Shown here one piece after another: positions 11,404 to 32,933 of a DNA stretch of 40,968 nucleotides. Source of the DNA: a virus; the IMG/VR virus record IMGVR_UViG_3300004097_000017, positions 1 through 40,968 of that record. The stretch is one strand, 5' to 3'. Position 1 is the first letter of the stretch. Every line of letters starts with the position of its first letter. The notes below the pieces were generated by a model. The model saw only the letters and a list, made by a program, of their open reading frames with translations. It did no database searches and was not told where the DNA came from. Both the position numbers and the translations under genes were made by a program.

Positions 11404-11420
11404 AAACGAGGAACTAAAAC

Positions 11421-12041
11421 ATGGCACTCAGAATCTTACCATTCAGACAGTATAACGAACATAATGTCGTAAACTTGTACGCTCTTGACGGCTCGGCCAC
11501 CATTCCTGGTGACCTTGCTACAGAGGGTGACGGTGACGCAGGCATTCTTGTAAAAATTAAAGCAGGAGATTTCGATAAAGGAATCGAGTATGACTTTTCC
11601 CAGGGCTACTTAGGGAAGACAGACTATCCCCACGTCGGGGCAAACGGTTATCCTAAAGTAACAGGCATGACATTCGAGCCTACAACTGGACTTGAAGATA
11701 CTGGCATTCTCGGAATCACGCTTAGACAAACCGCAACGCATGACGAAAACGGAGAAAAGCTTCTCTATTATCGCCAAAAAGCTATCGAGCATCAGGCTGT
11801 ACTTCCAGGTGAAGTCGTTCCTGTTCTCACCGCTGGTCTTGTGACTCTTGCAGCGTCGGCATTCGATGCAACCCCAACACTTGGAGCTACATTAGGAGCT
11901 GGAGCTGACGGAGTGCTTACAGTTGGAGGAACTGGAGTTGGTCGAGTCCTAGCAGTAGGATCTCGTAAAGCAGGTGATAATCCTGACCAATTCTCAGGAA
12001 CTGGTACGGCTGCATATGCTTTAGTCAAAATTGAACTTTAA
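11421..12041 (+). CDS. Probable capsid decoration/stabilisation protein
   Basis: A 206-residue, Gly-, Ala-, Thr- and Val-rich beta protein placed between scaffold and major capsid protein, where many phages encode a decoration protein. The C-terminal part has a Gly/Ala-rich low-complexity stretch (LGATLGAGADGVLTVGGTG). The leader AAAACGAGGAACTAAAACATG contains a GAGG ribosome-binding site, and codon use resembles the capsid gene, both signs of high expression. No enzyme motif. The specific decoration role is inferred from position and composition. Confidence 0.65.
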   Translation: MALRILPFRQYNEHNVVNLYALDGSATIPGDLATEGDGDAGILVKIKAGDFDKGIEYDFSQGYLGKTDYPHVGANGYPKVTGMTFEPTTGLEDTGILGITLRQTATHDENGEKLLYYRQKAIEHQAVLPGEVVPVLTAGLVTLAASAFDATPTLGATLGAGADGVLTVGGTGVGRVLAVGSRKAGDNPDQFSGTGTAAYALVKIEL

Positions 12042-12063
12042 TAACAGAGAGGACTAAAAAAAC

Positions 12064-13164
12064 ATGAAGATCACACTCAAAAAGACAGAAGAGCAAATAG
12101 AACTGGTAAAGGCTATGGCTTCCCGCAACCGTGACGTTGCTTATGAAGCTCAAATGGCACTGGCTGAATTTATTAGCCCAGTATTAGTTAAAGTTATTAA
12201 TCAGGCTCCAGTTATTAGTAATCTATTTAACAATTTTTCATTCAACGAAATGGACAGCCCGAGCCTTCCGCTTGATCTGTACTACGACATTACTGCTCCT
12301 GAATACGTTAAAGTATACAGCACATCCGTTCCTGGTGGTTTACCAACGAACACTGTTGTACCTACCGTATCCGAGATGAAGTTCACAACCTATCGTCTTG
12401 ATAGCGCTGTTGACTTTGACAAACGTTATGCTGCTAAGTCCCGTATGGACGTCGTTGGAAAAACATTTACACGTATCGCTCAAGAAGTTCTTCTTAAGAT
12501 GGAAGCTACATCCCAGTCGCTTCTTCTTGGAGCTCTTGACCAGGCAACAACCAATGGTGTGGATCACTTCACTAAAGCTGGTAGTACCTTGATTCTTGAC
12601 GATTTCAACGAATTGTTGACTAAGTCAAAACGTATCAATACTGCATGGACAGGTTCTGCTCCAGAAGGTGGACGTATTAAAGGAATTACAGACCTTATCA
12701 TGAGTCCTGAAGCAATTAAAGGACTTCGTGAAATGGCTTACAATCCTGTGAATACTAAGACTGGTCCTGGTACCTCTGACAACGGAATCCCTGCTACTGA
12801 CAGCATGAGGGATGGCATCTACAATAACGCTGGAACTCCTGAGTTCTTTGGTATTTCCATTATGGAAATTAATGAACTTGGTCCAGAACAGAAGATGACC
12901 AATGCTTTTCAAAATCTTCTTGGCGGATATGCCGCTAGTGCTACCTTTAAAACTGGCGATGACTTGTGCATCGGTCTTGATCGTTCTCGTGAGTCGTTGT
13001 TCCGCGCGGTTGCTACTGATTCTGAAAGTGGCAGTGAGCTTAACCTCGTTGCTGATGATCAGTACAGTGTGCGTCAATCCAAGATCGGATACTTCGGATC
13101 AATGGAAGAAGGACGTATGATTCTTGACGACAGAGTTCTTACAGGACTCCATATTGTCAAGTAA
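12064..13164 (+). CDS. Major capsid protein
   Basis: A 366-residue protein following protease-scaffold and decoration genes and followed by a strong terminator. The N-terminal 40 residues are helical, then come mixed alpha/beta segments such as LPLDLYYDITAPEYVKVYS and DFDKRYAAKSRMDVVGKTFTR, compatible with an HK97-like fold (E-loop, P and A domains). Codon use is strongly biased (CGT for Arg, CTT for Leu, TCC for Ser, AAC and GAC), unlike most neighbours, as expected for the most abundant protein. The leader has an AGAGGA ribosome-binding site. Family call rests on context, length and expression signs rather than a single motif. Confidence 0.85.
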   Translation: MKITLKKTEEQIELVKAMASRNRDVAYEAQMALAEFISPVLVKVINQAPVISNLFNNFSFNEMDSPSLPLDLYYDITAPEYVKVYSTSVPGGLPTNTVVPTVSEMKFTTYRLDSAVDFDKRYAAKSRMDVVGKTFTRIAQEVLLKMEATSQSLLLGALDQATTNGVDHFTKAGSTLILDDFNELLTKSKRINTAWTGSAPEGGRIKGITDLIMSPEAIKGLREMAYNPVNTKTGPGTSDNGIPATDSMRDGIYNNAGTPEFFGISIMEINELGPEQKMTNAFQNLLGGYAASATFKTGDDLCIGLDRSRESLFRAVATDSESGSELNLVADDQYSVRQSKIGYFGSMEEGRMILDDRVLTGLHIVK

Positions 13165-13210
13165 AAAATGCAAACCGTATCCTAATATTTAGGAAAAAAA
13201 GTTTCTCTCA

Positions 13211-13241
13211 AAAGATCCACCTTTTTAGGTGGATTTTTTGT
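13211..13241 (+). terminator. Intrinsic terminator after the major capsid gene
   Basis: A perfect 7-base stem ATCCACC/GGTGGAT (13215-13221 and 13228-13234) with a 6-base loop TTTTTA, preceded by AAAAG and followed by a run of T. It ends the head-gene transcript 50-75 bases after the capsid stop. A weaker hairpin TCCTAA-TAT-TTAGGA lies just upstream, at about 13179-13193. Confidence 0.88.
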
Positions 13242-13260
13242 TTCTATATATTATTATAGT

Positions 13261-13267
13261 AGTGTAA
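13261..13267 (+). promoter_or_regulatory. AGTGTAA element restarting transcription after the capsid terminator
   Basis: An exact AGTGTAA word about 20 bases after the terminator and 30 bases before the next gene start. A promoter is expected here because the terminator would stop upstream transcription, so this copy is one of the better arguments that the element is a promoter. Confidence 0.45.
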
Positions 13268-13297
13268 TCATGTCTAAATTCAAAAAGGAGGATTGTT

Positions 13298-13687
13298 ATG
13301 CCCAGGAAAAGGAAAATAGTTAAAAAGGAAGTACAAAAAGTATCTAAGAAAAAGATAGAATTTGCAGACGGCAAAGATGTCTCTAAAGAAGAGAACATTG
13401 AGTCGCTCGTAGGATTTAAAGTCAAAGGTAGTTATGGAGTAAGCACAGCACAGGAGTTTGAGGACAAGATTAATTTAATGTCCCTATCAGACCTTCAAGC
13501 TTTAGCTGTAACTAACGGGGTATTCCCGTCAGGAACCAAAGCAATGCTCAAGAACAAGCTTAAAAAGGCTTTTGCTGAATATTCGGCCTATAACGGCAGG
13601 ACACCGACTCAGGGTGTTACAACCCCTATAATGGACCCTGAATCAAAAGCTGCTAAAGAGTTTCTGAGAATAATGAACGGCAGTTAA
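13298..13687 (+). CDS. Small basic protein with SAP-like motif
   Basis: A 129-residue protein with a very basic N-terminus (PRKRKIVKKEVQKVSKKK). Residues of about 62-95 read LSDLQALAVTNGVFPSGTKA followed by LKNKLKKAF, the pattern of a SAP-type helix-turn-helix that binds DNA. The ribosome-binding site AAGGAGG is the strongest in the window, 8 bases before the ATG, so expression is probably high. A DNA-binding protein packaged in the head, or a head-completion protein, would fit its position after the capsid gene. Function not proven. Confidence 0.65.
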   Translation: MPRKRKIVKKEVQKVSKKKIEFADGKDVSKEENIESLVGFKVKGSYGVSTAQEFEDKINLMSLSDLQALAVTNGVFPSGTKAMLKNKLKKAFAEYSAYNGRTPTQGVTTPIMDPESKAAKEFLRIMNGS

Positions 13688-13688
13688 G

Positions 13689-15260
13689 ATGGCTGGATAT
13701 AAAAAAATCAGGGATTTAGGGTCTTTCACTACAATAACGAAAGACCATATTGTACCCGTATCAACCCCCGTAGGCTCACCTACCGAAAGTACAGGACATA
13801 CGACTGCATCTAATTTTTTTGGAGCTTTCTTAGGAGGCTCCTCGTCCATGGAATTAGATGCTAACGGTAAGTTAAAAATTAGAAGTGGAGCAGTAAGCGC
13901 TGAACAGTTTGAGCCAGGAGCTCTTTCGGACAGTAATGCAAGCGTACAAAACGCCACAACCGCAACGGAAATGGCTGATTTGACTGGGAATGTATTAAGT
14001 ATAGCAACTGGAAATTTTGGAAAACTTGCAGCTATTGTGATTACGGATCATCCTGCGGCAAATGACATAGGGCCAGACCCTAGGGAGATCAGTATTGTCG
14101 CAACTGGTAATACAATAATAACTTGCATCAAGAACGGTTTTGCACATCCTACACAAGCAACCAGGCACGAGGTTACTATATACTCTGAAGGAGGAGATAT
14201 TCCGACCCCATTAGATGAAGCAAAAACATATTTTGCTCAAGCTATAGGTGCGGATTCTTTTCAGCTTTTCGAGACTGCTAACGGTGGAAGCGCTATCCAG
14301 TTTGCGGACACAGGTAGTGGTATACTAAAAGTAAGAAGAAGAAGTGTGTTTGCATTACAAAATGGAAATCTAAACGGAGGAGTTTATTCCCCTAATGCAT
14401 ACAATGCCTATTGGGGCGACTCAACTATTGTAGCTATAAATAATGTGTTTGCTTCATTTGAAGGTGCTTACAACTGGATACTCAGAAATAATGCTGGACA
14501 AAATTTGGTTTTAAATATAGGGAGTGCCTTGTACCCGAAGTGCAATTATAATCAGCCTGGATCAACCAGCGGAAGACTAGCTGTTGATCCAGAATTTACA
14601 AATGTTAATAAATTTAGAATCACTGGAAATCGATGGGATATAGCGACTAACGCAATAACAACCGCATCCATGACTTATAGCGGCGGTGAACCAACTGGTC
14701 ATCAGACCAAAAACTGTGCTCGTCTAGTAGTTTATGTAAAGATTGGCGGCTTGCATATTTGGGTAAGGGAAGCAATACATAGAATCCAATTTATTGGATG
14801 GATTTATGATGGCCAAAACTCAGGCGCAGATGCTCCTAATGAATTTTACCGAAGTGGAGCTCTTGGCACTGTAACAAATTGCAGTTGGACACTTATAAAT
14901 TTTAATGGTGGTGGAATGCCAGATTCCGCAATAGCGTCAGTTGGTGGAGGTGCAAATACCTATTTGACTGGAGATACTTTTGTTGACTATTACGGCGGAG
15001 GAAGCAATAGCTGGAAAAACACTATAACTGCGGCAAACGTTAGGGTTTTTACCTCATTCCAGGGGGGCAGAGGATTTGTGTTTGCCAACGGACCATCCAG
15101 GCTCGCAATAAAAAATGCAGCAAACCAAGTAATGGGTAAACTTACGGCCGACTGGCTTTATGTTAATGCCGCTTCAGAATGCACTCTTCGTGCGGATCGT
15201 TCTCATAACTTCCAAGCCCCTGCCGCCCTCTTAAATCAAGCTAGTTTGACAACATATTAA
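13689..15260 (+). CDS. Tail fibre/spike-like structural protein with KIRDL N-terminal module
   Basis: A 523-residue Gly-, Asn-, Thr- and Ser-rich protein without signal peptide. The first 50 residues (starting MAGYKKIRDLGSFTTITKD) share a pattern with three other genes of this window (15611, 22953, 23909) and may be a virion-attachment module. The remainder alternates short hydrophobic and polar stretches, with repeated Asn-Gly and Gly-Gly turns, as in beta-helical or beta-sandwich spikes. It starts 1 base after the SAP-like gene. A head fibre is possible, because the gene sits next to the capsid block rather than next to the tail genes. Confidence 0.65.
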   Translation: MAGYKKIRDLGSFTTITKDHIVPVSTPVGSPTESTGHTTASNFFGAFLGGSSSMELDANGKLKIRSGAVSAEQFEPGALSDSNASVQNATTATEMADLTGNVLSIATGNFGKLAAIVITDHPAANDIGPDPREISIVATGNTIITCIKNGFAHPTQATRHEVTIYSEGGDIPTPLDEAKTYFAQAIGADSFQLFETANGGSAIQFADTGSGILKVRRRSVFALQNGNLNGGVYSPNAYNAYWGDSTIVAINNVFASFEGAYNWILRNNAGQNLVLNIGSALYPKCNYNQPGSTSGRLAVDPEFTNVNKFRITGNRWDIATNAITTASMTYSGGEPTGHQTKNCARLVVYVKIGGLHIWVREAIHRIQFIGWIYDGQNSGADAPNEFYRSGALGTVTNCSWTLINFNGGGMPDSAIASVGGGANTYLTGDTFVDYYGGGSNSWKNTITAANVRVFTSFQGGRGFVFANGPSRLAIKNAANQVMGKLTADWLYVNAASECTLRADRSHNFQAPAALLNQASLTTY

Positions 15261-15261
15261 A

Positions 15262-15621
15262 ATGAGAAAATATAATAGGTATCACTATGGACCAATGAAT
15301 GACTCGGTCTTTGATTTAGAAACTGGCGAAAATCATCATGATGGAACTTGGGAATATCGTCAAATTTTAGATTCAGGCGTTGATATAGCAGATTTTACTG
15401 GAGAAAGACCATTAAATGTAAAACAACAAATAGAGTTAGACATAGAAAAAGCAAAACAAAATGCATGGTCAGCCTTATTTACCACCGATTGGTACTTTGT
15501 TAGAAAAATTGAGACAGGTAAAGAAATACCTGAAGAAATAAAAAACCAAAGACAATCCATAAAAAACAGTCTAGAAGAACATTTATCCGTCCTCCAAGAA
15601 GAGCTCAAGAATGAGCTATAA
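15262..15621 (+). CDS. Tail-fibre-assembly-like protein
   Basis: A 119-residue protein between two fibre/spike genes. The segment TTDWYFVRKIETGKEIPEEI and the following RQSIKNSLEE match the pattern of Caudovirales fibre-assembly chaperones (a 'sDW..' motif, then 'P.e...yR..lR'). Such proteins help fold or trimerise fibres and are not always in the virion. It starts one base after the upstream spike gene and overlaps the next by 11 bases, a layout typical of fibre-chaperone pairs. Confidence 0.6.
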   Translation: MRKYNRYHYGPMNDSVFDLETGENHHDGTWEYRQILDSGVDIADFTGERPLNVKQQIELDIEKAKQNAWSALFTTDWYFVRKIETGKEIPEEIKNQRQSIKNSLEEHLSVLQEELKNEL

Positions 15622-17356
15622 ATTAATCAGAGAGCTCAATCAATATGAGCAAGATGAAAATATACCTGCAAGCGGATATCTTATAGCTGCATCAAATCCT
15701 GATGGCACTCCTGCGGAAGAAACATACAGGATGAGCGTTAAGGATATCGTTAGTGAATATAATCGAGAGATAGCAAAGGAGCAGGCTGAAAAAGCTGCCG
15801 CTGGAGATACATTAATGGGAAGTACTTTTTCTGAAGTACAAATAATTAACGGACAAGAAGTTTTAGTGGATGCAACCCCAATTACTGCAGCAAACATAGA
15901 CTCACTAGTTGACCCTGGAAGCGGTCTTGAGGTTGTAGAAATATGTTATGATATATCAAAGAATACGGTTCCTTGTACTATCAACGGACAGCCCAATCCA
16001 GCTGTCAAATACAAGCAAAAAAAATTAAGCTTTGCTAAGAGCGCTTCTTCAAAGTCTATAACTCTACATGTAAATGCTAATACGGGAGTAGATTATGGAA
16101 ATAATCCTGGGGACTTTAGGGTTGGCTCCAGTGGGGCTGTTGATCAGAGGTTTTTGAATGTGAGGGATGCTTTCCTTTATATGAATGCTGAAGTTGTTTC
16201 GACCAGTATAACAATCAATATATATCTTGAAACAGATACTGAGGAACCTTGGTTTTATGGCAATGGATATACGACAGCTTTACAGTTTAAGAGAATAAAT
16301 ATTTACGGAGCTGATGCAGCTGATCAAAACTTAAGAAAAATGCATGTAAAGCACGGGGTAGGGGTAACATATGTGGATCCGAGCCAGATATCTGCGGCAA
16401 GCTTAAGTGAGATGAACGCTCAGTGGAACGGTGTTCAGCAATTTAGGCACGGTCAATATAGGGCGAGAGCGACAACTGCAAACCCGAATCCAACAGACCA
16501 AACTACATTACCCGCAGGAGTTGTATTGACAATACATGCATGCTGCCCTTTCTGGGTTAACGCGGACATATATTGGAGGGGTGTTCATTTTATTGTAGAG
16601 CTTCATGGCGAATCAATTTTCGCCCTATACAGACAAGTTCGTTCTCAGGTTTACTTTGGTCAGTGTAAGTTTTCAGCAAAATCATATACGAGACCAGATA
16701 TTAATGGAGGCATACCCTCAACAAGTTCTACCTTGGTGGGTATATCTCATTTTTTTGATATCAGAGATAATTCAAGAATGCATGTACTAAACATTGCAGA
16801 CGGAACATCTTTCCAGGATTTCTCTGGTATAGCATGGAAGGGTATAGACACTTCAGGTTTAGAGCTAGATCTTGGTGGGGTTAATTATATAGCTGCAATG
16901 TTTTTACTTGAAAGTGGGTCAAGACTTTCAATTATCGAATATCAAGCTGGCTCACATGCGGCCAACGGACAGGCAGCTAGAACTATGCCATCTAGGTTGA
17001 CTATAACCAGTCCTATCGTTAATTGCCAAAATTTCTTTCAGCTTACTGAGGCTTCTGTTGTTGTAGCTAATGCCCCTATCGTTATAGCTGATCATCTTTC
17101 CGTATCAGACATTAAAGTGGATTATGCGTTAAAAGCAGAAGGTTTTAACACCATAAGAATGTGGGGGTACAGCGATGAAAATGGAGCCGCTCAACCTCAT
17201 GTGATACCTGGCACTGCTCTCGAAAATAAGGGGGGCGGTTCGCTAACTACACCAAATGTAGATTATAGAAATACCAGTAATGTATTAAATGGAATAGGTA
17301 ATATGAAATTTTACTCTCAGTATTACGATAATTATACTAACTGGACAGTTTATTAA
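15611..17356 (+). CDS. Tail fibre/spike-like protein with N-terminal KIRDL-like module
   Basis: A 581-residue protein starting MSYKLIRELNQYEQDENIP, a variant of the module of the 13689 gene. Residues of about 140-580 are beta-rich and contain typical parallel beta-helix phrases (SITINIYLETDTEEPWFYGN, LQFKRINIYG, LELDLGGVNYIAA). This architecture is common in receptor-binding spikes and polysaccharide-degrading fibres, but I see no catalytic set. It overlaps the assembly-like gene by 11 bases. The stop overlaps that of the convergent gene (17353) by 4 bases. Confidence 0.68.
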   Translation: MSYKLIRELNQYEQDENIPASGYLIAASNPDGTPAEETYRMSVKDIVSEYNREIAKEQAEKAAAGDTLMGSTFSEVQIINGQEVLVDATPITAANIDSLVDPGSGLEVVEICYDISKNTVPCTINGQPNPAVKYKQKKLSFAKSASSKSITLHVNANTGVDYGNNPGDFRVGSSGAVDQRFLNVRDAFLYMNAEVVSTSITINIYLETDTEEPWFYGNGYTTALQFKRINIYGADAADQNLRKMHVKHGVGVTYVDPSQISAASLSEMNAQWNGVQQFRHGQYRARATTANPNPTDQTTLPAGVVLTIHACCPFWVNADIYWRGVHFIVELHGESIFALYRQVRSQVYFGQCKFSAKSYTRPDINGGIPSTSSTLVGISHFFDIRDNSRMHVLNIADGTSFQDFSGIAWKGIDTSGLELDLGGVNYIAAMFLLESGSRLSIIEYQAGSHAANGQAARTMPSRLTITSPIVNCQNFFQLTEASVVVANAPIVIADHLSVSDIKVDYALKAEGFNTIRMWGYSDENGAAQPHVIPGTALENKGGGSLTTPNVDYRNTSNVLNGIGNMKFYSQYYDNYTNWTVY

Positions 17357-18426
17357 AGTGTGTATAAATTCTTTTCTAGGTCTTCTATTTTGAATCTGAA
17401 GTAACTGCTGGAGCTATCACCTATACCAGTAAATGCATAAATGTATTCTTCGTGTGCCACACAGGAGGATGTGTATAAAACGCCAGAAAATTGACCAGGA
17501 GTAGATATCCCTCCTCCTAGAATTGGCTTCGGTGTCCATGCAATTGGCTTTAGTGTGTCTTTATTAATTATTAAAGCATGTTGATAATATGTTCTATTTC
17601 TGCTACCTTGTAGTGATGCATTTGGGTAAAAGTATTGATGCAAGAACATTAAGTAAACACTACCTAAGGATTGTATATTTATTTCAATAGGATTTGTGCT
17701 GCATGCCATGTATGAATTACCAAGTCTTTTTATCTTAAAATTAGTTCTTTCATATGAAATAGCATTACCAGAATCATCAAATTCAATAACAACCCATGGT
17801 TCGCAACAGTAGACCGCTTTTAGTTTACCGTTGTGAGAGAAAAATGCCCAGTTCTTTTCAAGCTTAGATTCGCCTAGGCCTATCCTGGATTGATCGCACT
17901 CCCTTAAGAACTGCATTCTTTTACCAAGAATTAGTGAAAGCCCCATGGAGCATCTTACTGTTTTTTGAGGCCAGCCCCTATCAAGATAATAATAGTTAGA
18001 GAAATTAGAATAAACCCTATCTTTGTGCCTAAACATTCTCCAGTCTTCTGGCCTGCAGGCAGCTGGCATGCCATTGTCGAATTTTTTTAATTTACTAAAT
18101 TCTATTTCATTATTATTATTTATTGTTCCTGTACATTTTAATGAGGAGGCTTTATCTGTCATTAAGTAACCACTAAAACTTGCATCAGTGTCCTCTCCCC
18201 TGAATAATAAATCAATTGTATTGTCTTCGTTTTTTATCGAGCCTGGGTTTATTATGGAACTATGACCTAAGCCTTGGTCTCCTGGTTGGAATATGTTAAA
18301 CTCATGGATATCCATGTCGTTTGAGTTCTTGAAGTGGTCCAGGGTTTTTACTTTTTCCCCTGGAGAAAGAGTCGGAAAAACTTCTGATATTTTAGTCCGC
18401 CTTAAGAAGTCTTCGTTTTTTTCCAT
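17353..18426 (-). CDS. Glycosidase-like beta-propeller protein
   Basis: A 357-residue protein. I chose the ATG at 18426, one base after the upstream stop, because an upstream in-frame ATG (18492) would add only an out-of-frame reading of the neighbour's GSGPQ repeat. Segments CRPEDWRMFRHKDRVYSNFSN, LEKNWAFFSHNGKLKAVYC and FSGVLYTSSCVAHEEYIYAF resemble blade motifs of five-bladed propellers of the GH43/GH130 kind ('eDpR.f...Y', 'eKNW.pf..dg.l..vY', 'f..G......Y...yG..D'). It may bind or trim glycans on the virion or host. It is last in the inverted neck operon, which makes a virion role likely. The call is tentative; catalytic residues could not be fixed. Confidence 0.5.
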   Translation of the reverse strand: MEKNEDFLRRTKISEVFPTLSPGEKVKTLDHFKNSNDMDIHEFNIFQPGDQGLGHSSIINPGSIKNEDNTIDLLFRGEDTDASFSGYLMTDKASSLKCTGTINNNNEIEFSKLKKFDNGMPAACRPEDWRMFRHKDRVYSNFSNYYYLDRGWPQKTVRCSMGLSLILGKRMQFLRECDQSRIGLGESKLEKNWAFFSHNGKLKAVYCCEPWVVIEFDDSGNAISYERTNFKIKRLGNSYMACSTNPIEINIQSLGSVYLMFLHQYFYPNASLQGSRNRTYYQHALIINKDTLKPIAWTPKPILGGGISTPGQFSGVLYTSSCVAHEEYIYAFTGIGDSSSSYFRFKIEDLEKNLYTL

Positions 18427-18427
18427 T

Positions 18428-19696
18428 TTAGAATTGAGACTGTGGTCCTGATCCTTGTGGTCCTGATCCTTGTGGGCCTGATCCTTGTGCATCTCTCCTC
18501 AGTACATATACTAACGTGCCTTTTTTATGAAAGTTTAGGGTAGGTATGTCAATTATAATTGAGCCAAAGTTTGTTACTATTCTTTTTTCTTCTATAGGCA
18601 TTCCTGGTGCGATTGATATTTCATCTCCAATTTGGAATATTGATTGGTCGCAAGGGATTAATGTTGTTGTGCCAGCCTCGGAGTCTTCGCATAAATTTGT
18701 AGCAGCAATATATGTTTCTGGCGGGCGATTCTTTTCCTTACCGATACATGGCGGTGGGGGAGGTGGTGGAGCGGGAGGAAAGCATCTTCTAGTAAACCTT
18801 GATTGGCAGACCTCGAAATCTATAAAGCCTAAAAATAAATTTGGATTAGTTGTCTTAGATAGTCTGTCGCTTATTTTCGACGACTTTACATCGTCAACAA
18901 ACATAAGTTTTGGTATTTTCTCTGAACCCTTGGCTGTTTCGTAATAACTGAAGTAATAGTCTTTTGTGTCGCCAAATTCATTAAGCGGGTAATCGTCAAA
19001 ACCTATATTACATATACCTGCATTGTAGGCGTCCGCGCAAAGAGCCATAGCTCCGTCCAATTGGTATAAGTTTTCAGCAAATATTACAACTCTATAGTAT
19101 AGATGAGTAAGGTCTTCGCCACCAAGAGCAAACGGTGTGTTTACGGTTCTTTCCATGGATACAAAGGCAGCTGGAGCCACTTGTTCATATGGCTCTAGTC
19201 CCTGTCCTTTGCCTAAATCTGGAACAGTCCTACTGTTGACATTGTACTTATTTTGCAAAACTAAATTTTCCTCAACATCATCTGCCAGGTATATATTTAT
19301 ATCCTTTACTGCAAACTGCGATTTAATTTTAAGCTTATCATAAATTTCAGGGAAATAAAATCCGCTAACCAAAACCCTGCCGTTCTCGAAGTCTATGTTT
19401 ACTCCGCTTTCCCCTCTATGGCAGAAGTCATAACCAGCTCCAGTATCTATGTAGACTCCAGAGGGCACAATTGCTCCTTCTGCTGTAGCATCATTATTAC
19501 ATACCCACTGCTTGTACTCACTATTATAGCTAGCCAAGCCTAAGATTGGGTCTTCTGGATAAACGGGAAGCCTTTCATCTGGCTTGTAATAAAGCCCTCC
19601 TTCTTTATTGGAAAAACCTTCTCCTTGTCTAATAAAATAATTATCTAACCAGAGGGCAAAACTTGTAGTGGCTTCGTGTTGGAATTGCGGTTTCAT
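18428..19696 (-). CDS. Virion structural protein with polyproline linker and C-terminal GSGPQ repeats
   Basis: The ATG at 19696 overlaps the upstream stop (TAATG) and is preferred over the longer frame beginning at 19747; it gives 422 residues. The N-terminal 310 residues are beta-rich (segment TTSFALWLDNYFIRQGEGF near the start). A run of prolines (PPAPPPPPPP) links to an 80-residue domain, and the protein ends with three copies of GSGPQ. The repeat is built from a 15-base DNA unit repeated three times. A similar GSGP tail is on the protein at 24773. Probably a neck or tail-completion component because it is coupled to two such genes; not recognised by family. Confidence 0.6.
   Translation of the reverse strand: MKPQFQHEATTSFALWLDNYFIRQGEGFSNKEGGLYYKPDERLPVYPEDPILGLASYNSEYKQWVCNNDATAEGAIVPSGVYIDTGAGYDFCHRGESGVNIDFENGRVLVSGFYFPEIYDKLKIKSQFAVKDINIYLADDVEENLVLQNKYNVNSRTVPDLGKGQGLEPYEQVAPAAFVSMERTVNTPFALGGEDLTHLYYRVVIFAENLYQLDGAMALCADAYNAGICNIGFDDYPLNEFGDTKDYYFSYYETAKGSEKIPKLMFVDDVKSSKISDRLSKTTNPNLFLGFIDFEVCQSRFTRRCFPPAPPPPPPPCIGKEKNRPPETYIAATNLCEDSEAGTTTLIPCDQSIFQIGDEISIAPGMPIEEKRIVTNFGSIIIDIPTLNFHKKGTLVYVLRRDAQGSGPQGSGPQGSGPQSQF
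18440..18489 (-). repeat. Three tandem 15-base units encoding GSGPQ
   Basis: On the minus strand the unit is GGATCAGGACCACAA, repeated three times with one or two substitutions. It encodes the flexible C-terminal end of the structural protein. In another frame it also gives an HKDQ repeat that artificially extends the downstream ORF. Confidence 0.8.
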
Positions 19697-20340
19697 TATA
19701 GTGACTGTATATTTCCTCCTGTAAGTTTTGCAAACTGCTTTGCCCAACGATTAAGGAATGCTGTTATGTATTGCGTGTTAGTGAATCTGCCGCCCCTGAT
19801 TTTTGATTGTGTTTGTATGCCCGTGCCAGATCTACTAGTGCTTGAGCTTTTATTCATATACATACCTAGGCCAGACATCCCTATTTCAATTCTTTGAGTC
19901 CAGCTAATTCCTGGTGCCCAAGGCAAGGGGGTTGCTCTAAAAATTTGATCACGACTTGGCATTTCAACGGTAATATTAATGACTCCGCGCACCATTCTGG
20001 AGCAATTGAAATTTGTCTGAGAAAGTAACTCTACGATTGGGTCAATGGGCCTGTCTGATTTATTGAAACCTATGAAGGTGAAAAGATTGCCGTATCCACC
20101 TAGTGTACCACTGGAATTTGTGCTGCTTGGTCCATCTGAAATCTCTTTAGTAATAGGATGATTTAAGAAATTTCTAATCATCTCCTGTTTTAATTTTTCA
20201 AATTCTTTAAACAAGTTTTTACCACTGTTTGTTTCTAGCTCTCTTTTGAATGCATTAGGGTCATTTAGTTTACCCATTGAGTTAATGACATCTTTTTTAA
20301 ATGCACCTTTATTTGTGCTAAATGTAACTCTAGGCCTCAT
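19696..20340 (-). CDS. Probable neck/tail-completion protein
   Basis: A 214-residue protein whose central part, GYGNLFTFIGFNKSDRPIDP, resembles a conserved element of small phage head-tail joining or tail-completion proteins. The N-terminal 60 residues are helical (LFKEFEKLKQEMIRNFLNHP), the C-terminal part is mixed. Its start overlaps the preceding stop (TAATG) and its stop overlaps the next start (TAATG), so the operon is tightly coupled. Exact position in the virion (connector, stopper or terminator) is not resolved. Confidence 0.55.
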   Translation of the reverse strand: MRPRVTFSTNKGAFKKDVINSMGKLNDPNAFKRELETNSGKNLFKEFEKLKQEMIRNFLNHPITKEISDGPSSTNSSGTLGGYGNLFTFIGFNKSDRPIDPIVELLSQTNFNCSRMVRGVINITVEMPSRDQIFRATPLPWAPGISWTQRIEIGMSGLGMYMNKSSSTSRSGTGIQTQSKIRGGRFTNTQYITAFLNRWAKQFAKLTGGNIQSL

Positions 20341-20789
20341 TAGTCTGCTGGCTGTAAGTAGTATGTAAAAAATTTAGGTCTAAATAAACCGTGTTTCTTT
20401 ACATCAGTTATTTTAAAAAATAGTCTACCGTCAATTTCTACCCGTTTGGCCTGCTGAAAATACTCATTACCTTCTTGGTCTACTTTTATTCTCACTTCAC
20501 CAATATTTTGAGTAACTTTTATTTGACTGTCAACTTGTGCATCATAGGTTATTTCGTTCTGTTTGTCCATGTAGCTTATGCGAGCTGTTATAGCTTTAAA
20601 TTGGCTTTTTCTCACAGTTTGACTGACCCCTTTAACATTATTATATAAAAAGTTAAAATTTGGATCTGTGCTTACGATAACCTTTAGTGATTCTTTATAA
20701 GCGTATATAGTTCTAGCGAATGTATCATGCATATTTTGCATAACTTCTTCGTACTCTTTTTTGTCTTTAGAATTTAAATAAGAAGGCAT
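20340..20789 (-). CDS. Probable head-tail connector/neck protein
   Basis: A 149-residue protein that opens the leftward operon. It has a helical N-terminal 40 residues and then a beta-rich domain (KAITARISYMDKQNEITYDA, VRIKVDQEGNEYF, VEIDGRLFFKITDVKKHG), the sort of small beta-barrel used by head-closure or stopper proteins. The AGTGTAA element lies 11 bases upstream of the ATG on the minus strand. Assignment is by fold impression and operon position. Confidence 0.5.
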   Translation of the reverse strand: MPSYLNSKDKKEYEEVMQNMHDTFARTIYAYKESLKVIVSTDPNFNFLYNNVKGVSQTVRKSQFKAITARISYMDKQNEITYDAQVDSQIKVTQNIGEVRIKVDQEGNEYFQQAKRVEIDGRLFFKITDVKKHGLFRPKFFTYYLQPAD

Positions 20790-20800
20790 AACATATAAGA

Positions 20801-20807
20801 TTACACT
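20801..20807 (-). promoter_or_regulatory. AGTGTAA element for the leftward neck operon
   Basis: Reading the minus strand, AGTGTAA lies 11 bases before the ATG of the connector gene. The plus-strand gene at 20858 does not have its own copy; its leader holds CATAAATATATAATATAA. Confidence 0.45.
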
Positions 20808-20857
20808 TTACTTGAAAAAAAGCTGTCATAAATATATAATATAATTAGGTACAAGGA

Positions 20858-21139
20858 ATGAATGCAACGGATATATTTTCAGAAACTAATCATAAACATA
20901 TTAAAACTTTGTTTAAATCTTTTCTAATTTTAATTGAAGATTTGCATAAGGAACACGAAATTAACTTCGATAAGTTAAAAAAGAGCTTGCCCGAAGATCA
21001 GCAGTTAATAGTGCAAGCCGACTATTTTGATGAAGATAAGTTAAAGTATTTAAGAAAAAAAGTTTTAGACATGGGGAATGAAGTTATTAGAAGTAACGAT
21101 AATGATCTAGAGAATTTTACTATAAGTTTTAAGTTTTAA
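20858..21139 (+). CDS. Small helical hypothetical protein, 93 aa
   Basis: A charged, helical protein (segment FKSFLILIEDLHKEHEINFD near residues 19-38). It precedes the tail assembly chaperone-like gene by 25 bases with an AAGGA ribosome-binding site in its own leader. The A/T run CATAAATATATAATATAA about 35 bases upstream resembles a T4-type late promoter (TATAAATA). No known domain. Confidence 0.5.
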   Translation: MNATDIFSETNHKHIKTLFKSFLILIEDLHKEHEINFDKLKKSLPEDQQLIVQADYFDEDKLKYLRKKVLDMGNEVIRSNDNDLENFTISFKF

Positions 21140-21164
21140 TTTTACAATAAGGAACAAGGTTAAT

Positions 21165-21929
21165 ATGCAAAAAAATAAGATATACTCATTTACAGTCAAC
21201 TTAGAAAAAGAAGTTGAGGAATCAACTGTTACTAAGAAGAAGAATAAAGAGACTGGAAAGATGGAAGAAATCCAGACAGTTAAAAAAGTGACTAAAGAGG
21301 TCCCAAATACGGTTACCCTTTATGAGCCATCGCGCAGGCAAGTTGAAGAGGCTGACATGGAGTTTAGTATCGAGATGAGTAAATGCATTAAAAGGGGCAT
21401 CCTCACTAAAGCTATGTTGGCTAAAAAATATAGCGACTCAGGCGGATTGTTGACAGAAGAGGATTCTCAAAAATTGGTGAGGAGTTATTCTAAACTAGCT
21501 GAAGTTCAAAATGATTTAGGTAGGATCATGGCTAAAAAGAAAAAGAATCAAGAAGAAAAAGACGCAGAAACTAAGCTAACTGAAGAGTTTGCGAAAACCC
21601 GCAGAGATATTGTTGATCTAGAAACGGCATATCAAAATGTATTTAATCATACTGCAGACACCAAAGCTCAAAATAGAACAATCTTGTGGTACCTAATAAA
21701 TTTATCTTTTGTAACAGATTCAGCTGGAATTGAAAGACCTTTATTTGAGGGGGATGATTACGATGAGATGCTTGATAATTATTATCTTAAGGATGAAAAA
21801 GGTGACGAGATATATGATGTTTGCAGAGAAAAGGTTATGGCCTTCATTAGTTTTTGGTATTTCAGTCAAAATGCATCACAAGAGGATTTTAAAAGTCTAG
21901 AAGAAGAAATTGAGACTGGAGCTATTTAG
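21165..21929 (+). CDS. Probable tail assembly chaperone (first part)
   Basis: A 254-residue, Lys/Glu-rich helical protein just before the tail genes. Its N-terminus (KIYSFTVNLEKEVEES) is followed by a Lys-rich loop and a coiled coil. Position and character suit a tail assembly chaperone, the protein class usually made in two versions by programmed frameshift. Here it ends with TAG at 21927-21929, and the next ORF is in the same reading frame one codon later. Readthrough would fuse the two (see findings). The assignment is from context; no specific motif proves it. Confidence 0.5.
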   Translation: MQKNKIYSFTVNLEKEVEESTVTKKKNKETGKMEEIQTVKKVTKEVPNTVTLYEPSRRQVEEADMEFSIEMSKCIKRGILTKAMLAKKYSDSGGLLTEEDSQKLVRSYSKLAEVQNDLGRIMAKKKKNQEEKDAETKLTEEFAKTRRDIVDLETAYQNVFNHTADTKAQNRTILWYLINLSFVTDSAGIERPLFEGDDYDEMLDNYYLKDEKGDEIYDVCREKVMAFISFWYFSQNASQEDFKSLEEEIETGAI

Positions 21930-21932
21930 GAT

Positions 21933-22916
21933 GTGTCTAGCACTCCTTACAGGAAAAACTTAGTTGAGATAATTGACGGTTCTAGTACCGCTTTTATAAG
22001 AAACCAGCGGGTATTCATAAAACATAAGAATGTATCTGATGTCGTAGACTACGAGATCATATACGATAATTTTTTTGAAAGAGCACAAGAGAGAGGGCTA
22101 CCTACTCAAAAAGAAATCATAGAGGAGCTTGAGGTCGCAGAAATATGGACGAAGGCAGATGAGGATTATACTCAAACGCAAAAAAGCTTCATAGAGGGTT
22201 TAAGGATTAGTAAGGGCTCTCTTTATATAGAGTCAGCTATACAGCAAATTAATAAACAATTAGAGAATGCTGAAATAGAGCTAAATCAGCACCTCAATAA
22301 AAGAGCAAACCTTATACAAAATTCTTGCGAAACCTATGCATCAAACAGGGCGAACGATTACTACATATTAAGATCCTTCTTTAAGGATAAGGACACCTCT
22401 GAACCCCTTTATACGGAAGAAGAGTTTGAGTATCTTGAGTCCAGTATACTGGCAGAGGTTATTGATTCATACAATGTGTTTCATGGGAAATTTTCTGAAG
22501 AACAAATAATGGAATTAGTCGTTCAAGATTTTTATAAAATTTACTACTCATTCTCCGAGACTGCTACAGATTTTTTCGGGAAACCAGTGGCTAGGCTGAC
22601 TAACTTCCAGTTGAACTTGCTGATATATACAAGGATATTTAAAAACATATTTGAGCAAAACAATGACATCCCCGAAAGAATGCATAAGGACCCGCAAGCC
22701 TTACTTGATTTTGCTTCGTCTTCTAGCTCCAGGGAAAAAGCTAAGGGAGAATTAAATAAGGAAGGATCAGCTGGTGCGAGTGTTCTTGGAGCAACAAGTC
22801 AAGATATGGAGGACTTGGGTTTAAATACAAGCACCCAAAAAAACATGAATACATTAGTTAAAGAAAAGGGAGGATCTTTAAGCATGAAAGATTTGATGGA
22901 TTTGAATGGTATTTAA
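21933..22916 (+). CDS. Probable tail assembly chaperone-like/tail protein (second part), GTG start
   Basis: A 327-residue helical protein. No ATG fits the N-terminus; the frame opens with GTG at 21933, directly after the previous stop, giving VSSTPYRKNLVEIIDG. An ATG two bases earlier is out of frame and stops after 10 codons. The middle (about 60-250) is helical and charged, and the C-terminal 70 residues are Ser/Gly/Lys-rich and probably flexible. It could be expressed by reinitiation at the GTG or by readthrough of the TAG codon. No enzymatic motif seen. Confidence 0.55.
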   Translation: MSSTPYRKNLVEIIDGSSTAFIRNQRVFIKHKNVSDVVDYEIIYDNFFERAQERGLPTQKEIIEELEVAEIWTKADEDYTQTQKSFIEGLRISKGSLYIESAIQQINKQLENAEIELNQHLNKRANLIQNSCETYASNRANDYYILRSFFKDKDTSEPLYTEEEFEYLESSILAEVIDSYNVFHGKFSEEQIMELVVQDFYKIYYSFSETATDFFGKPVARLTNFQLNLLIYTRIFKNIFEQNNDIPERMHKDPQALLDFASSSSSREKAKGELNKEGSAGASVLGATSQDMEDLGLNTSTQKNMNTLVKEKGGSLSMKDLMDLNGI

Positions 22917-22935
22917 TTCGCCTGAATAAAATATA

Positions 22936-22942
22936 AGTGTAA
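22936..22942 (+). promoter_or_regulatory. AGTGTAA element before the S74 fibre gene
   Basis: An exact AGTGTAA in the 36-base gap, 10 bases before the ATG. It overlaps a weak CGGAG sequence that could also serve as a ribosome-binding site. Confidence 0.4.
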
Positions 22943-22952
22943 CGGAGTAAGT

Positions 22953-23915
22953 ATGGCTCTCATAAAACTAAGAAACTTACCTGCGTCACAGCCTGGAGAT
23001 TTTACTGGACAAAACTTGCTTGCGGTTGCACTTGAGGATGAAAATCTAGATAAGGAAACTAAGGCATTCACCTGCGGGGAAATGATATCAGGGATGATGC
23101 AAGTTTTTTCTGGGGATGGCAATTTTGCAAACTTCCAGAATGGGTTAAGAGTTAGCGGGGAATCTGTTTCTACTGGGGATGCAGGTGCCTCAATAGGCGG
23201 AGAGAAGATTTTGAACGAAGCTGCTGATGGTAGTATAATGTTCGGGGGAATGGATCCAGGTGATACTAAGGATATTTTATTTGCTCATGGGGGTGATGAG
23301 AAAATGAAAATCACAGCAGATGGAGTAAATATTCAGCCAGGTTTAACCGTAAATGGTTTATCGGTATTGACTCAGGGGTCTAATATATCATCCCTGGCTA
23401 ATGACGCTGGTTATATAACTATTGCAGATATACCCTCAAACTTAAGTCAGTATACTAATGATGCAAATTTTCTTACTGCTGTAGATTTACCAGGCTTAAT
23501 AAGTGTTGGGGCATTAACCTTAATGAATGGAACAAAAAACCTTGGAACTTTTGTTAGTAGCACTACTAGTGTTATAGATATCAATGTTCCAGAGTATGAA
23601 GAAGTGGAGGCTGCGTTTCTAGATTCCGACATGACTCTTAAGGATGAATTAAGCTTAATTACCGACCCCATGGTTAAGGTGGAGAAAATAAATGGCTACA
23701 ATTTCATATGGAACGAGGATGCTGGAGGTGATAAACATGGAGAAAAGGATGTTGGGGTAATAGCTCAAGAAATTAAAGAGGTTATGCCCGAGGCTGTAAA
23801 AAATAAAGATGGCACACTAAAAGTTGCATACCATAAAATCATTCCATTGTTAATTGAGTGTATAAAGGATCAGGAGAAAAGAATAAAACACTTAGAAGGT
23901 AAAATGAAATGCTAG
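22953..23915 (+). CDS. Tail fibre with C-terminal S74 intramolecular chaperone
   Basis: A 320-residue fibre protein. The N-terminus (MALIKLRNLPASQPGDF) is the shared KIRDL-type module. The middle has fibre repeats of the NDAGYIT/NDANFLT type (residues of about 150-175). The C-terminal 100 residues are a peptidase S74 chaperone: the self-cleavage region SDMTLKDELS starts at Ser225 and has Lys230, followed by INGYNFIWNEDAGG and DVGVIAQEIKEVMPEAV. S74 domains trimerise the fibre and then cut themselves off. A terminal coiled coil (IKDQEKRIKHLEGKMK) fits trimerisation. It overlaps the next gene by 7 bases and ends with TAG. Confidence 0.88.
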   Translation: MALIKLRNLPASQPGDFTGQNLLAVALEDENLDKETKAFTCGEMISGMMQVFSGDGNFANFQNGLRVSGESVSTGDAGASIGGEKILNEAADGSIMFGGMDPGDTKDILFAHGGDEKMKITADGVNIQPGLTVNGLSVLTQGSNISSLANDAGYITIADIPSNLSQYTNDANFLTAVDLPGLISVGALTLMNGTKNLGTFVSSTTSVIDINVPEYEEVEAAFLDSDMTLKDELSLITDPMVKVEKINGYNFIWNEDAGGDKHGEKDVGVIAQEIKEVMPEAVKNKDGTLKVAYHKIIPLLIECIKDQEKRIKHLEGKMKC

Positions 23916-24196
23916 GATTTAGAAAAATTAGAGATCTACCTGCGGGGGTACCTACCAGCGGCTCAATGCTTATGTTTGCTAATGATGAAGAGGCTGAGTT
24001 TAAGCAGACCAATGCAGCTACAGTAAGAGATCTTCTTCCTCTTTCTTTTTTTGAATTAGAGGAAGGTGTACTGACAGTAACAGAAAGGCCCACTACATTT
24101 AAAAAAGTAGGCGGTAATCTATATTTAAAAAGTGCGTGCATAGGTACTGCCACATTTCAGGTAGACGGCGACAAGCTTGTAATCACAACAAAATAA
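23909..24196 (+). CDS. Small virion-associated protein with KIRDLP module
   Basis: A 95-residue protein that is nearly only the shared N-terminal module: MLGFRKIRDLPAGVPTSGSM, then an A-T-V-x-D-L-L segment and a short beta-rich tail. Its size suggests that the module folds on its own. It overlaps the S74 fibre gene by 7 bases. Probably a minor fibre or an anchor for fibres; enzyme function not indicated. Confidence 0.55.
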   Translation: MLGFRKIRDLPAGVPTSGSMLMFANDEEAEFKQTNAATVRDLLPLSFFELEEGVLTVTERPTTFKKVGGNLYLKSACIGTATFQVDGDKLVITTK

Positions 24197-24772: not shown

Positions 24773-25480
24773 ATGAGTAGTGAAGAAGTAAATCAAATAG
24801 GAAAGATAGCTAGTGGCTTACTAATGTATGAGTTCGATTATTTATCTGAAGAAAGTAGGCCATTTGAGCTTCAGTTGATATCTGGTAGTTTGAGTGGAAG
24901 AATGGGGGAGCTTAATATACTATTAAACCAATCATTTTCTTTTACTGGTGATGACGGGAATCCATTTCCTAGATTGCAAAAAGAAGAATCGGATATACTA
25001 GAACTGTTGTACCTTAGGGATTACAATACAAAACAAGCTCAAAAGTTATTAAGAGGGGTATATGATGTAGGTACCTCAGATTCTATAGCTGACTCACCTA
25101 CGCCATGGATAGAACTATCAGAAGGCGACACTACCATTAAGAGAAGCCCAAACAGTAATGGTAGCTCTGCCGCTAATAGAATTACAATGAGTAAGGACTT
25201 TAAGTCTCTATCTCAAGAAGCTAGAGAAAAGATAGAGCAGTTGGTTTATGCATACAATATGTATGGGGCTGAGCCAAGGCAGGTTATAGCAGATGATTGC
25301 TGCGATTCTTGCCATTGTGCTGGCGAAGAAAATGAAACGCCAAAACAGCAGAATCCAGCCACTCCTCCTCCTAGTCAAGGGTCGGGCCCCAGTCAGGGAT
25401 CTGGACCAATTCAAGGTTCTGGCCCCGCAGCCGAAAACGCTGAAGAAGAAATCGATGATGAAATCGTATCTGATATCTAA
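24773..25480 (+). CDS. Virion-associated protein with Cys cluster and C-terminal GSGP repeats
   Basis: The ATG at 24773, 5 bases after the previous stop, is chosen over an earlier in-frame ATG (24686) that lies inside the upstream gene; it gives 235 residues. The first 150 residues are helical. A cysteine cluster DDCCDSCHCAG may bind metal. The C-terminus holds three GSGP units (QGSGPSQGSGPIQGSGP), then an acidic tail. The same GSGP tail is on the minus-strand structural protein ending at 18428, although the rest of the two proteins is unrelated. It directly precedes the tail-tube genes; role unknown. Confidence 0.55.
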   Translation: MSSEEVNQIGKIASGLLMYEFDYLSEESRPFELQLISGSLSGRMGELNILLNQSFSFTGDDGNPFPRLQKEESDILELLYLRDYNTKQAQKLLRGVYDVGTSDSIADSPTPWIELSEGDTTIKRSPNSNGSSAANRITMSKDFKSLSQEAREKIEQLVYAYNMYGAEPRQVIADDCCDSCHCAGEENETPKQQNPATPPPSQGSGPSQGSGPIQGSGPAAENAEEEIDDEIVSDI

Positions 25481-30522: not shown

Positions 30523-31944
30523 ATGCCTCAGTTAAGGAATGCAATTAGATATAATGCGGCGGGCCTGTTCTTAACAGACTCTCCTGCTATACGGCCTGAA
30601 ACAAAGGATATACACTTCTTCAATAGAGTGCAGAAGGCAGATATATCTGTGTCTGTAAATAGACAGGATATTAAAAACCTTGGCTCCGACAGTTTTCTTG
30701 ATCGAAAAATAGTATCTGAACCAGATATTACAATTAATTTTGATTATTTTCTAACTGATGGTCATGAAGAAAGCGTCCTTGGTTTTAATATTGCATCGGG
30801 ACATCAAGATGTAAGTGGCTCAATTTATAAGGACTTAAAAGAAGACAAGACTGCATTTCTGGTTATAGGCGAAGAGCCCTTTGATTTAACTGGTTATGCG
30901 GCTAAACCTGGAAAGTTCAAGGGTTGCACTGCGATTGGTTTGGGTAATTGCTATTTAACTGATTACAGTATTAGTGCCTCCGTGGGTTCAATTGCCCAGG
31001 CTAGTGCATCAATGAAATGCTCAAACATAAACTACCAGTGTGTGGAGGGTCATACTTGGGAGGAAATATTAGAAGCAATTGGTGCTATACTTGACCAAGA
31101 AGATAATGCGGACGATGACTTTATAAGGTTTCAAGATGATGGTAGAATAGTTCTGGATGGAGAAAACGAAAATACTGCATTCAAAGGACTGAAAATGCCT
31201 TCACTGGATTTAGTTAATAAAGGCGCGGAGATTACTGGGACTGGATTAATTTTTGATCCTATATTATATAATTCAGCTGCTGCTGCACTGGCTCCTGGTG
31301 GAATAAAAGTTAATCTTGAAAACTTAAATGTGGGTGGACCTATTCTTTCTGGCGACTTTACTGGAACATGTTTTAATGGTCATGCTAATATACAAAGCTT
31401 TAATATAACAGTTCCATTTGAGAGAGAAAATCTATACGGATTTGAGTCTATGCATGCATACGGAAGAAAAATGAAGTATCCACAATTAGGTAATATATCT
31501 TTTGAATTAACTTCTAGTGCTTTTGAAAGTGGAGAATTTTTTGATATACTATGTGATGATAGAGAATATAAAATAGAAATATTATTAAATAATCAATGTA
31601 ACTTTTCATGTTTGGGCTCTGCTAGTAAGGATACCTTTATGAAGTTGATTGTTGATAATGCTAAGTTTGATAATTATAGTATAAGTAATAGTATTGGTGG
31701 ACAGGCTAGTACCGTGTCCTGTAATTTTTCTTTTGGTATGAGTAGGGGTGAGGGGTTTTGTATGAGTGGTAGCTATCCGAACACCAGGGAAGAGGATTGC
31801 TTGCCGTCAACCCAGCATGTACCTTTTGATTTTGACGTATCTAGGGTATTGACGGATGTCGATACAGCAACGAATGTTAAAGTGCATACGATACTTGGTG
31901 ATGAGAATAAGCCAGCAGATCTCACGACCGAAAGAGAGCCGTGA
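30523..31944 (+). CDS. Tail-tube-like protein, divergent paralogue 3
   Basis: A 473-residue protein with the same plan as the two preceding paralogues but much more divergent: AIRYNAAGLFLTDSPAIRP aligns with their start, SVSVNRQDIKNLGSDSFLDR with VNRTDVNQFGHLSRLDS, and GLGNCYLTDYSISASVGSIA with GNGFLTDYSVELSVGSIP. It could be a distal or terminal tube ring, or an initiator at the baseplate. Its GTGA stop overlaps the start of the next gene. Confidence 0.6.
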   Translation: MPQLRNAIRYNAAGLFLTDSPAIRPETKDIHFFNRVQKADISVSVNRQDIKNLGSDSFLDRKIVSEPDITINFDYFLTDGHEESVLGFNIASGHQDVSGSIYKDLKEDKTAFLVIGEEPFDLTGYAAKPGKFKGCTAIGLGNCYLTDYSISASVGSIAQASASMKCSNINYQCVEGHTWEEILEAIGAILDQEDNADDDFIRFQDDGRIVLDGENENTAFKGLKMPSLDLVNKGAEITGTGLIFDPILYNSAAAALAPGGIKVNLENLNVGGPILSGDFTGTCFNGHANIQSFNITVPFERENLYGFESMHAYGRKMKYPQLGNISFELTSSAFESGEFFDILCDDREYKIEILLNNQCNFSCLGSASKDTFMKLIVDNAKFDNYSISNSIGGQASTVSCNFSFGMSRGEGFCMSGSYPNTREEDCLPSTQHVPFDFDVSRVLTDVDTATNVKVHTILGDENKPADLTTEREP

Positions 31945-32897: not shown

Positions 32898-32926
32898 TTA
32901 ATTAACCTTTAAATTATTTATCGTAA

Positions 32927-32933
32927 AGTGTAA
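32927..32933 (+). promoter_or_regulatory. AGTGTAA element before the LamG adhesin gene
   Basis: AAAGTGTAATATACTATATG: the AGTGTAA word ends 8 bases before the ATG, and the gap is A/T only. No ribosome-binding site is visible. Confidence 0.45.

Follow-up and report, generated by a model that had tools for sequence, protein, structure and literature searches.

The window analyzed here is a single virus record (IMG/VR IMGVR_UViG_3300004097_000017, here G000) of 40,968 bases. Four of its genes, named by their first positions, begin with the same N-terminal module of ~45 residues: 13689 (positions 13,689 to 15,260; 523 amino acids [aa]), 15611 (15,611 to 17,356; 581 aa), 22953 (22,953 to 23,915; 320 aa), and 23909 (23,909 to 24,196; 95 aa), all on the plus strand. 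This segment is probably the N-terminal virion-anchoring module of fibers and spikes, in a clade-specific form (KIRxL) of a widespread KI[SR]xL family. The reading of an anchor with exchangeable fibers is well supported by inference, and separate or slot-specific docking positions appear, from the sequence comparisons below, to be at least as likely as one common site.

The original prediction placed the four genes correctly and gave their common start as Y/F/I-K-x-[IL]-R-[DEN]-L. Taken literally, this motif fits only two of the four, whereas all of them fit once the core is changed to [KL][IL]R[DEN]L. Within the first 15 residues, the core occurs in exactly these 4 of the 172 window open reading frames (ORFs) of at least 40 aa, compared with 0.04 on average and at most 3 in 1,000 residue shuffles of the window ORFs, and in 24 of the 5,171 ORFs of the window and loci L005 to L103 and L106 to L109 together. 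The window-only evidence for similarity is weak. In an alignment of the four N-termini, only R, L, and T columns agree, and searches for each left-out gene with the other three as the query gave E values of 0.0003 (23909), 0.12, 0.59, and 1.3, with 22953 ranking second in its own search. The question is decided by a profile of the relatives. These relatives are IMG/VR stretches coding for proteins related to the 12064 protein, which is the putative major capsid protein of the window (147 stretches, of which the best 80 were kept); a scan with the 25538 protein gave zero further loci, and a spike scan gave two, both on contigs already in the set.

A profile of 22 rows from the relatives and none from the window picked exactly the four genes (E values of 7e-23, 1e-14, 4e-11, and 1e-6), the next of the 172 ORFs having an E value of 3.1. 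A 13-row profile constructed without L005, L007, L011, L013, L014, and L016 found three of the four (2e-10, 4e-4, and 0.013) and missed 13689. An iterated profile search over 5,129 ORFs converged on 26 proteins from the window and 17 other loci, every match starting at residue 1 to 9, and the best reversed/shuffled control matches reached E values of only 0.99 and 1.4. In four relatives, five further genes, clustered upstream of what looks by eye to be a PhoH-like gene, were all matched from residue 1 to 8; this cluster lies beyond the stretch covered by the window. There are up to four module copies per record here (the window and G008). Chance or low-complexity similarity was ruled out by the relatives-only profile and by the reversed and shuffled controls. 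Convergence of short T- and A-rich N-termini, to which the weak leave-one-out scores in the window might point, is extremely improbable given the same results and the constant N-terminal position. The shared N-terminal segment is real.

The majority consensus of the 26 rows reads MxYIKIRxL, a variable stretch, YL..AL, a loop, and T...T. The module comprises a KI[RS]xL turn, a beta hairpin, and the start of a helix, and its invariant residues, except for one T column, lie in the first 10 positions, before the hairpin. As a check for a common fold, two of the four N-termini were modeled with AlphaFold, and both have the same predicted order of elements at low confidence (pLDDT of the module, 47 to 63). 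The model of the 95-aa protein (mean pLDDT, 54.8) has a turn at residues 7 to 9, strands at 20 to 24 and 34 to 38, and a helix at 39 to 42; that of the 15611 protein (mean pLDDT, 54.2) has a turn at 6 to 8, strands at 24 to 28 and 37 to 41, and a helix at 43 to 63.

The module also has counterparts outside the clade. A DNA pattern for M-x-x-x-K-I-S-D-L-P matched at least 120 stretches in IMG/VR, and many of the long ORFs from these continue like LTGAELVPVVQSDVTKKTT. From the first 80 loci, 50 of the 59 distinct ORFs of at least 60 aa join one profile (an in-sample count; alignments A3 and A4 contain 44 and 36 of these 50, respectively), as do 70 of 83 when all 120 loci are included and 20 of the 24 distinct ORFs from 40 loci outside profile building, all of which share the search motif. 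One hhalign comparison of the KIRxL and KISDLP profiles gave a probability of 92.7% (E value, 4e-7). In a separate comparison of the two groups with column shuffles, the score was 32.9 and none of the 100 shuffles exceeded 11.1, this score being aided by the motif used to gather the KISDLP set; with the motif cut off, the score was 9.8 against a best of 6.4 in 100 shuffles. A more distant capsid-protein relative, G030, bears a bridging N-terminus, KISELTQQ...YLVLAKTDEDNYKITFKDL. In tblastn, one KISDLP N-terminus matched 104 places in 72 phage records at E ≤ 1, with up to three places per record, and among the 60 matches listed of the 104 the names are often tail fiber, spike, or colanic-acid degradation, the others being hypothetical. 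When the KISDLP profile was run on 357 ORFs from Escherichia phage 4MG (68.6 of 148.6 kb) and a stretch of Synechococcus phage S-CAM22, exactly two fell below 1e-8: 4MG gp47, a 712-aa colanic-acid spike, and gp49, a 224-aa tail fiber, both encoded between baseplate genes. The isolate 4MG thus has the pattern of the window, the module on two different bodies, and the KIRxL module is a clade-specific form of the widespread KISDLP...PVVQxGxTkK N-terminus of phage fibers. A scan with a KIRNL DNA pattern, which reads arginine as AGR only and under-samples G+C-rich genomes, gave 50 stretches; the matched ATG opens a frame of at least 100 aa in 10 of them, and by eye 9 of these 10 are module genes, 8 of them on contigs already in the set.

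Neither Pfam nor PHROG has a family for the module. The 26 KIRxL N-termini gave only single-member matches in these databases at E ≤ 1 (best, 0.025 and 0.026); these, at E ≥ 0.025, were treated as chance, and a named domain for the module was rejected. Of 44 KISDLP N-termini searched against PHROG at E ≤ 0.01, four partly matched phrog_23037, two phrog_23703, and one each five other families, these five including a tail, a tail spike, and a virion structural one; one of the 44 matched Pfam MotCF (E value, 0.0035). No Pfam anchor family of the T7 type was found for the whole proteins (E ≤ 0.1) or for the 26 N-termini (E ≤ 1), and T4 fibritin (collar whiskers) does not occur by name among the general PHROG and Pfam matches, which included no direct comparison to the fibritin sequence. 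In the PDB profile search, TAL-effector repeats (E values, 0.001 and 0.006) showed significance in no one stretch and resemble repeat artifacts; GAPDH, an anti-repressor, a receiver domain, and other matches at E values of 0.77 or worse were treated as chance; and one weak match was to a chain titled "Structural protein" (9rkv_G; E value, 1.5). The tblastn matches of the 15611 N-terminus were to UCB24, which proved to be a different protein, and to Mycobacterium and Sphingomonas, all at E values of 3 or worse. A literature text search for KISDLP, KISQLP, ISDLPA, and KISELP found these strings in none of the papers covered. The phi92 paper would be the likeliest place for a discussion of shared N-termini in this phage group, and the module may already be described there or elsewhere.

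Behind the module, the bodies have been exchanged while the module was kept. The window and its near relative L007 share 84% DNA identity over positions 11,002 to 13,823 and 15,612 to 20,723 (the end of the L007 locus) and none between. Identity ends at 13,823 with L007 and at 13,825 with L005, in codon 45 of gene 13689. The body of 13689 has no homology at E ≤ 0.01 to the body at the equivalent place in L007; the L005 body is still a distant homologue (26% over 220 aa; E value, 1e-11), so that wholesale replacement is seen for L007 only. Faint protein similarity past the module fades at about residue 75, which puts the exchange junction near, and not exactly at, the module end. A gene for a tail-fiber-assembly-like chaperone (15,262 to 15,621, plus strand; 119 aa; phrog_4912, tail fiber assembly, E value of 2.6e-4) follows 13689. 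It is missing from the equivalent place in L007 and L005 and is labeled in none of the 30 mapped loci, and it was therefore probably exchanged together with the 13689 body.

Gene maps covering 30 loci, with upstream regions taken from four records, place the module genes in three slots: A, upstream of the PhoH-like gene; B, between genes 13298 and 18428; and C, beside the homologue of gene 21933. Beta-helix bodies of the 15611 type recur in slots A, B, and C behind modules that are 16% to 33% identical. The bodies of L106 gene 5869 (slot A) and of the L025 protein (slot C) are 47% identical over 521 aa, compared with 16% for their modules. Overall, 48 of the 87 homologous-body pairs cross slots, 12 of these over at least 300 residues. 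In addition, spikes of all three slots have another segment in common after the module, TPxxxxNLDsLVDPGxGLEV...YKTKKLS (15,860 to 16,060 in the window, and in L022, L106, L108, and L109), suggesting a modular build with at least two levels.

The modules themselves follow the slots. With positional A/B/C labels (the finer labels B1, B2, C1, and C2 are partly set by similarity) and 31 modules, an 88-aa fragment from L016 being left out, the nearest-neighbor module was in the same slot in 28 of 30 cases, compared with a mean of 12 and a maximum of 23 in 10,000 label shuffles; the relatives are not mutually independent, and near-identical loci inflate slot and body counts. The modules of the four window genes are only 18% to 32% identical to one another, whereas their identity to the closest module of the same slot in a relative is 74% (13689), 91% (15611), and 56% (22953). 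These values bear on the proposal in the original prediction that the module is a plug attaching exchangeable fibers to the same virion site. One module on unrelated, exchanged bodies is what we find, and 4MG gp47 and gp49 repeat it; the common site is not supported, since the window modules are so dissimilar and group by slot, not by genome, and this is why separate or slot-specific docking seems at least as likely.

Slot-specific addresses, in which each subtype would dock at its own position and one virion would display several fibers at once, are on this evidence a serious possibility just short of an even chance. The module of 23909 fits them poorly, with 39% identity at best and 32% to its counterpart in L014 (18,314 to 19,003; 229 aa, longer than the 95-aa protein). 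Plain vertical descent of each locus would also yield divergence by slot, and L021 and L106 each have two adjoining genes with modules 63% to 67% identical, as would suit one shared position. A fuller address code, in which subtypes would be tied to slots and docking positions, at least four fibers or spikes would be carried per virion, and bodies with their chaperones would be reassorted between addresses by recombination in a very wide range of KI[SR]xL phages, is offered tentatively, as an idea that we would sooner doubt than accept.

For the module as a virion anchor, the following mechanism can be proposed. Each fiber would be a homotrimer in which the first ~10 residues (KIRxL) act as a hook seated in a tail or neck docking protein, while the hairpin, together with the beginning of the helix, would close the trimer above the hook; a receptor-binding or polysaccharide-binding body would come after this trimer base. 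Recombination would swap bodies just behind the module, at least once along with the chaperone gene, so that docking would be retained while the host-facing part changes. The hook and trimer-base parts of this scheme draw on the analogy with phicrAss001 gp22 and other anchored fibers, and the S74, fiber-assembly, and beta-helix partners of the module support the anchor reading.

The module could instead be a trimerization or folding seed or a register-setting joint, with attachment by other parts. The modeled hairpin followed by a helix (residues 43 to 63 in 15611) would suit a trimer base, and the module is the only part shared by proteins with such dissimilar bodies. However, S74 and beta-helix bodies have trimerizing parts of their own and would hardly all need it, the invariant residues, one T column aside, stand ahead of the hairpin, and the subtype follows the genomic slot while bodies cross slots; we consider this alternative unlikely. 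A finding in its favor is a frame of 548 aa in relative G019 (locus L285; minus strand, within G019:C1:6000-12500), which has an internal KISNLP copy, KISNLPSATNLKDDDLFVIS, at residue 383 (combined profile E value, 2e-6). The first part of this frame is 48% identical over 148 aa to the body of an L026 module protein, and the internal copy is possibly a fusion of two genes or a joint between fiber segments; it suits a joint better than a plug. Far less probable is that a function of the DNA or mRNA, such as a recombination site or translation start, preserves the 5' end. The DNA identity of close relatives does stop near the module end, but the paralogous modules keep their R, L, and T columns at 18% to 32% protein identity and other residues are found in the KISDLP relatives; no search aimed at a common DNA element was made.

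Several results weigh against the virion-anchor reading itself. The internal copy in G019 means that the module is not N-terminal everywhere, which counts against a pure N-terminal plug. Among 50 whole records, 34 had no module match and 16 had one, though records may be fragments. On the maps, L008, L024, and L029 are without a slot-C module gene, with no match in their records, so the fiber genes are accessory at these places; L008 lacks a slot-B module gene too. The link between the two profiles is faint when single proteins are scored: the KISDLP profile on the ORFs of the clade ranks two module proteins first and second at weak E values of 0.056 (23909) and 1.0, and the KIRxL profile reaches 4MG gp47 and gp49 only at 0.055 and 0.97. 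The PDB profile search gave no significant match beyond the repeat artifact, both AlphaFold models are poor, and the docking, the trimer, and the partner protein are predictions.

The module is a variant of a known design, an anchor plus an exchangeable body, with an unnamed and widespread anchor family. Its closest counterparts are the KISDLP-type N-termini, such as those of gp47 and gp49 of 4MG (Vequintavirinae), which have the same order of KI[SR]xL, short variable stretch, hydrophobic strand, and T-x-K-x-T strand. As in the window, an N-terminal module stands before two different bodies in one genome. In contrast to the KISDLP type, the window module has R for S, often no P after L, and a longer loop between the strands, and the window and G008 have up to four copies per record compared with two in the part of 4MG covered. 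The YadA-domain structural protein of S-CAM22 (AOV60861) has the N-terminus TRKISQLDTISDANLSGEGILPVVV...RKVKINQL in the same register, with KIS and not KIR and one copy in the 24 of 172 kb covered; its scores were E values of 2 in tblastn, 0.029 with the KIRxL profile, and 0.15 with the KISDLP profile.

Among anchored fibers described elsewhere, the tail fiber gp22 of phicrAss001 (PDB 7qoj) is a trimer whose residues 1 to 26 lie in the tail docking hub of gp38 and gp39 (PMC10172136). Its residues 29 to 60 matched the second half of the module weakly (E value, 0.99; 0.38 at Z = 5000), a likeness that is not significant; gp22 has no KI[SR]xL hook, and profile A4 does not list it. The T7/K1F-type anchor domain and the Klebsiella anchor/branch systems likewise combine a conserved anchor at the N-terminus with a receptor-binding body that can be exchanged, and include a conserved peptide that attaches a second protein (PMC6872550). 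The T7/K1F anchor is ~140 residues long, compared with ~45 for the window module, which has no Pfam anchor match. The neck fiber gp82 of Anabaena phage A-1(L) is a trimer fixed to a neck protein by a 125-residue N-terminal domain (PMC10966104), and its likeness to the module is one of description. Conserved anchors with exchangeable bodies are known, but the present family, which is without a Pfam or PHROG entry, is widespread in phage contigs, with several copies in each genome. With a recognized profile, receptor-binding proteins that are probably attached to the virion could be spotted even when their bodies have no match, and the point where phages swap bodies could be located. The slot pattern makes the question of one site or many directly testable.

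The four window genes divide as follows. In 13689, the module (residues 1 to 48; positions 13,689 to 13,832) is of subtype AGYKKIRDL, in slot B, and was found with profiles A1 and A2; the exchangeable body of this fiber or spike protein occupies 13,833 to 15,260. The module of the 15611 spike (residues 1 to 50; 15,611 to 15,760) is of subtype SYKLIREL, also in slot B. Comparison and modeling suggest that its body (15,761 to 17,356) consists of a segment, TPITAANIDSLVDPGSGLEV...KYKQKKLSFAKS, followed by a right-handed beta-helix. In slot C, the module of 22953 (residues 1 to 48; 22,953 to 23,096) is of subtype LIKLRNL, and the fiber body (23,097 to 23,915) matches PHROG tail fiber families and ends in an S74 intramolecular chaperone (PF13884, Peptidase_S74; residues 225 to 283; E value, 9e-12), as predicted. 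The module of 23909 (residues 1 to 48; 23,909 to 24,052), of subtype LGFRKIRDL, is followed by a small strand-rich tail of ~47 residues (24,053 to 24,196), the last 35 of which had no match to other module proteins at E ≤ 0.01; the protein may serve as a short adaptor or may cap a position that is not in use. The conserved gene 21933 (21,933 to 22,916, plus strand; 327 aa) directly adjoins the slot-C module genes in relatives on the maps.

The downstream parts differ, as had been claimed: no two of the four bodies are homologous at E ≤ 1e-8, the 95-aa protein being too short for this comparison. A link to a fiber or spike body is seen for 22953 (S74 and tail fiber PHROGs) and 15611 (beta-helix), and the 13689 and 23909 proteins had no PHROG or Pfam match. 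Of the two spikes originally proposed, 15611 is borne out by a body that models as a right-handed beta-helix, whereas 13689 lacks any family match to back the label. In VIA-align, the 15611 model aligned with pectate lyase (Z, 12.3; root mean square deviation [RMSD], 3.3; 180 residues aligned, 208 to 556) and with the tailspike gp42 of Acinetobacter phage AS12 (Z, 11.9; RMSD, 3.8; 230 residues aligned, 149 to 560). Foldseek found nothing in the PDB or BFVD at E ≤ 0.001 (best, 0.048), so the clear beta-helix scores come from VIA-align alone, and much of residues 139 to 310 has a pLDDT under 50.

Elsewhere in the window, a terminase gene lies at 5806 (PHROG terminase; E value, 3e-28) and is followed by genes placed as portal- and protease/scaffold-like by gene order alone, which had no PHROG match. 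The 12064 protein has a weak PHROG major head protein match (E value, 0.099) and no tblastn match among 50,697 phage records. The terminase is just 23% to 27% identical to its matches in that collection (among the matches listed, the best 15 of 50), and the window therefore has no close relative there. In the region from 17353 to 22916, the block from 18,428 to 21,933 has the opposite orientation relative to the capsid genes in relatives such as L021, L022, and L036, indicating that it was inverted or moved. A 15-bp tandem repeat (18,441 to 18,489), located where genes 17353 and 18428 overlap, reads QGSGP in one frame and HKDQD in the other, and similar QGSGP repeats occur in gene 24686 (about 25,370 to 25,430). 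The three long proteins of 25538, 27196, and 30523, which had no PHROG match, look related by eye, the first two sharing the start HRNRVIYQSEALFISPD, and are likely paralogous tail components. Ahead of the tape measure, two proteins (31,941 to 35,002) have an InlB-type repeat (PF18998) and a laminin-G-like domain (PF13385) and, by eye, D-rich calcium-binding-like repeats. The tape-measure gene itself (35,078 to 40,966; at least 1,963 aa; PF10145, E value of 2e-23) is still open at the window end and contains recurrent G[LI][IV]PNF segments, between which phosphatase-like and ParB-like stretches can be recognized by eye, as if enzyme domains were embedded in it.

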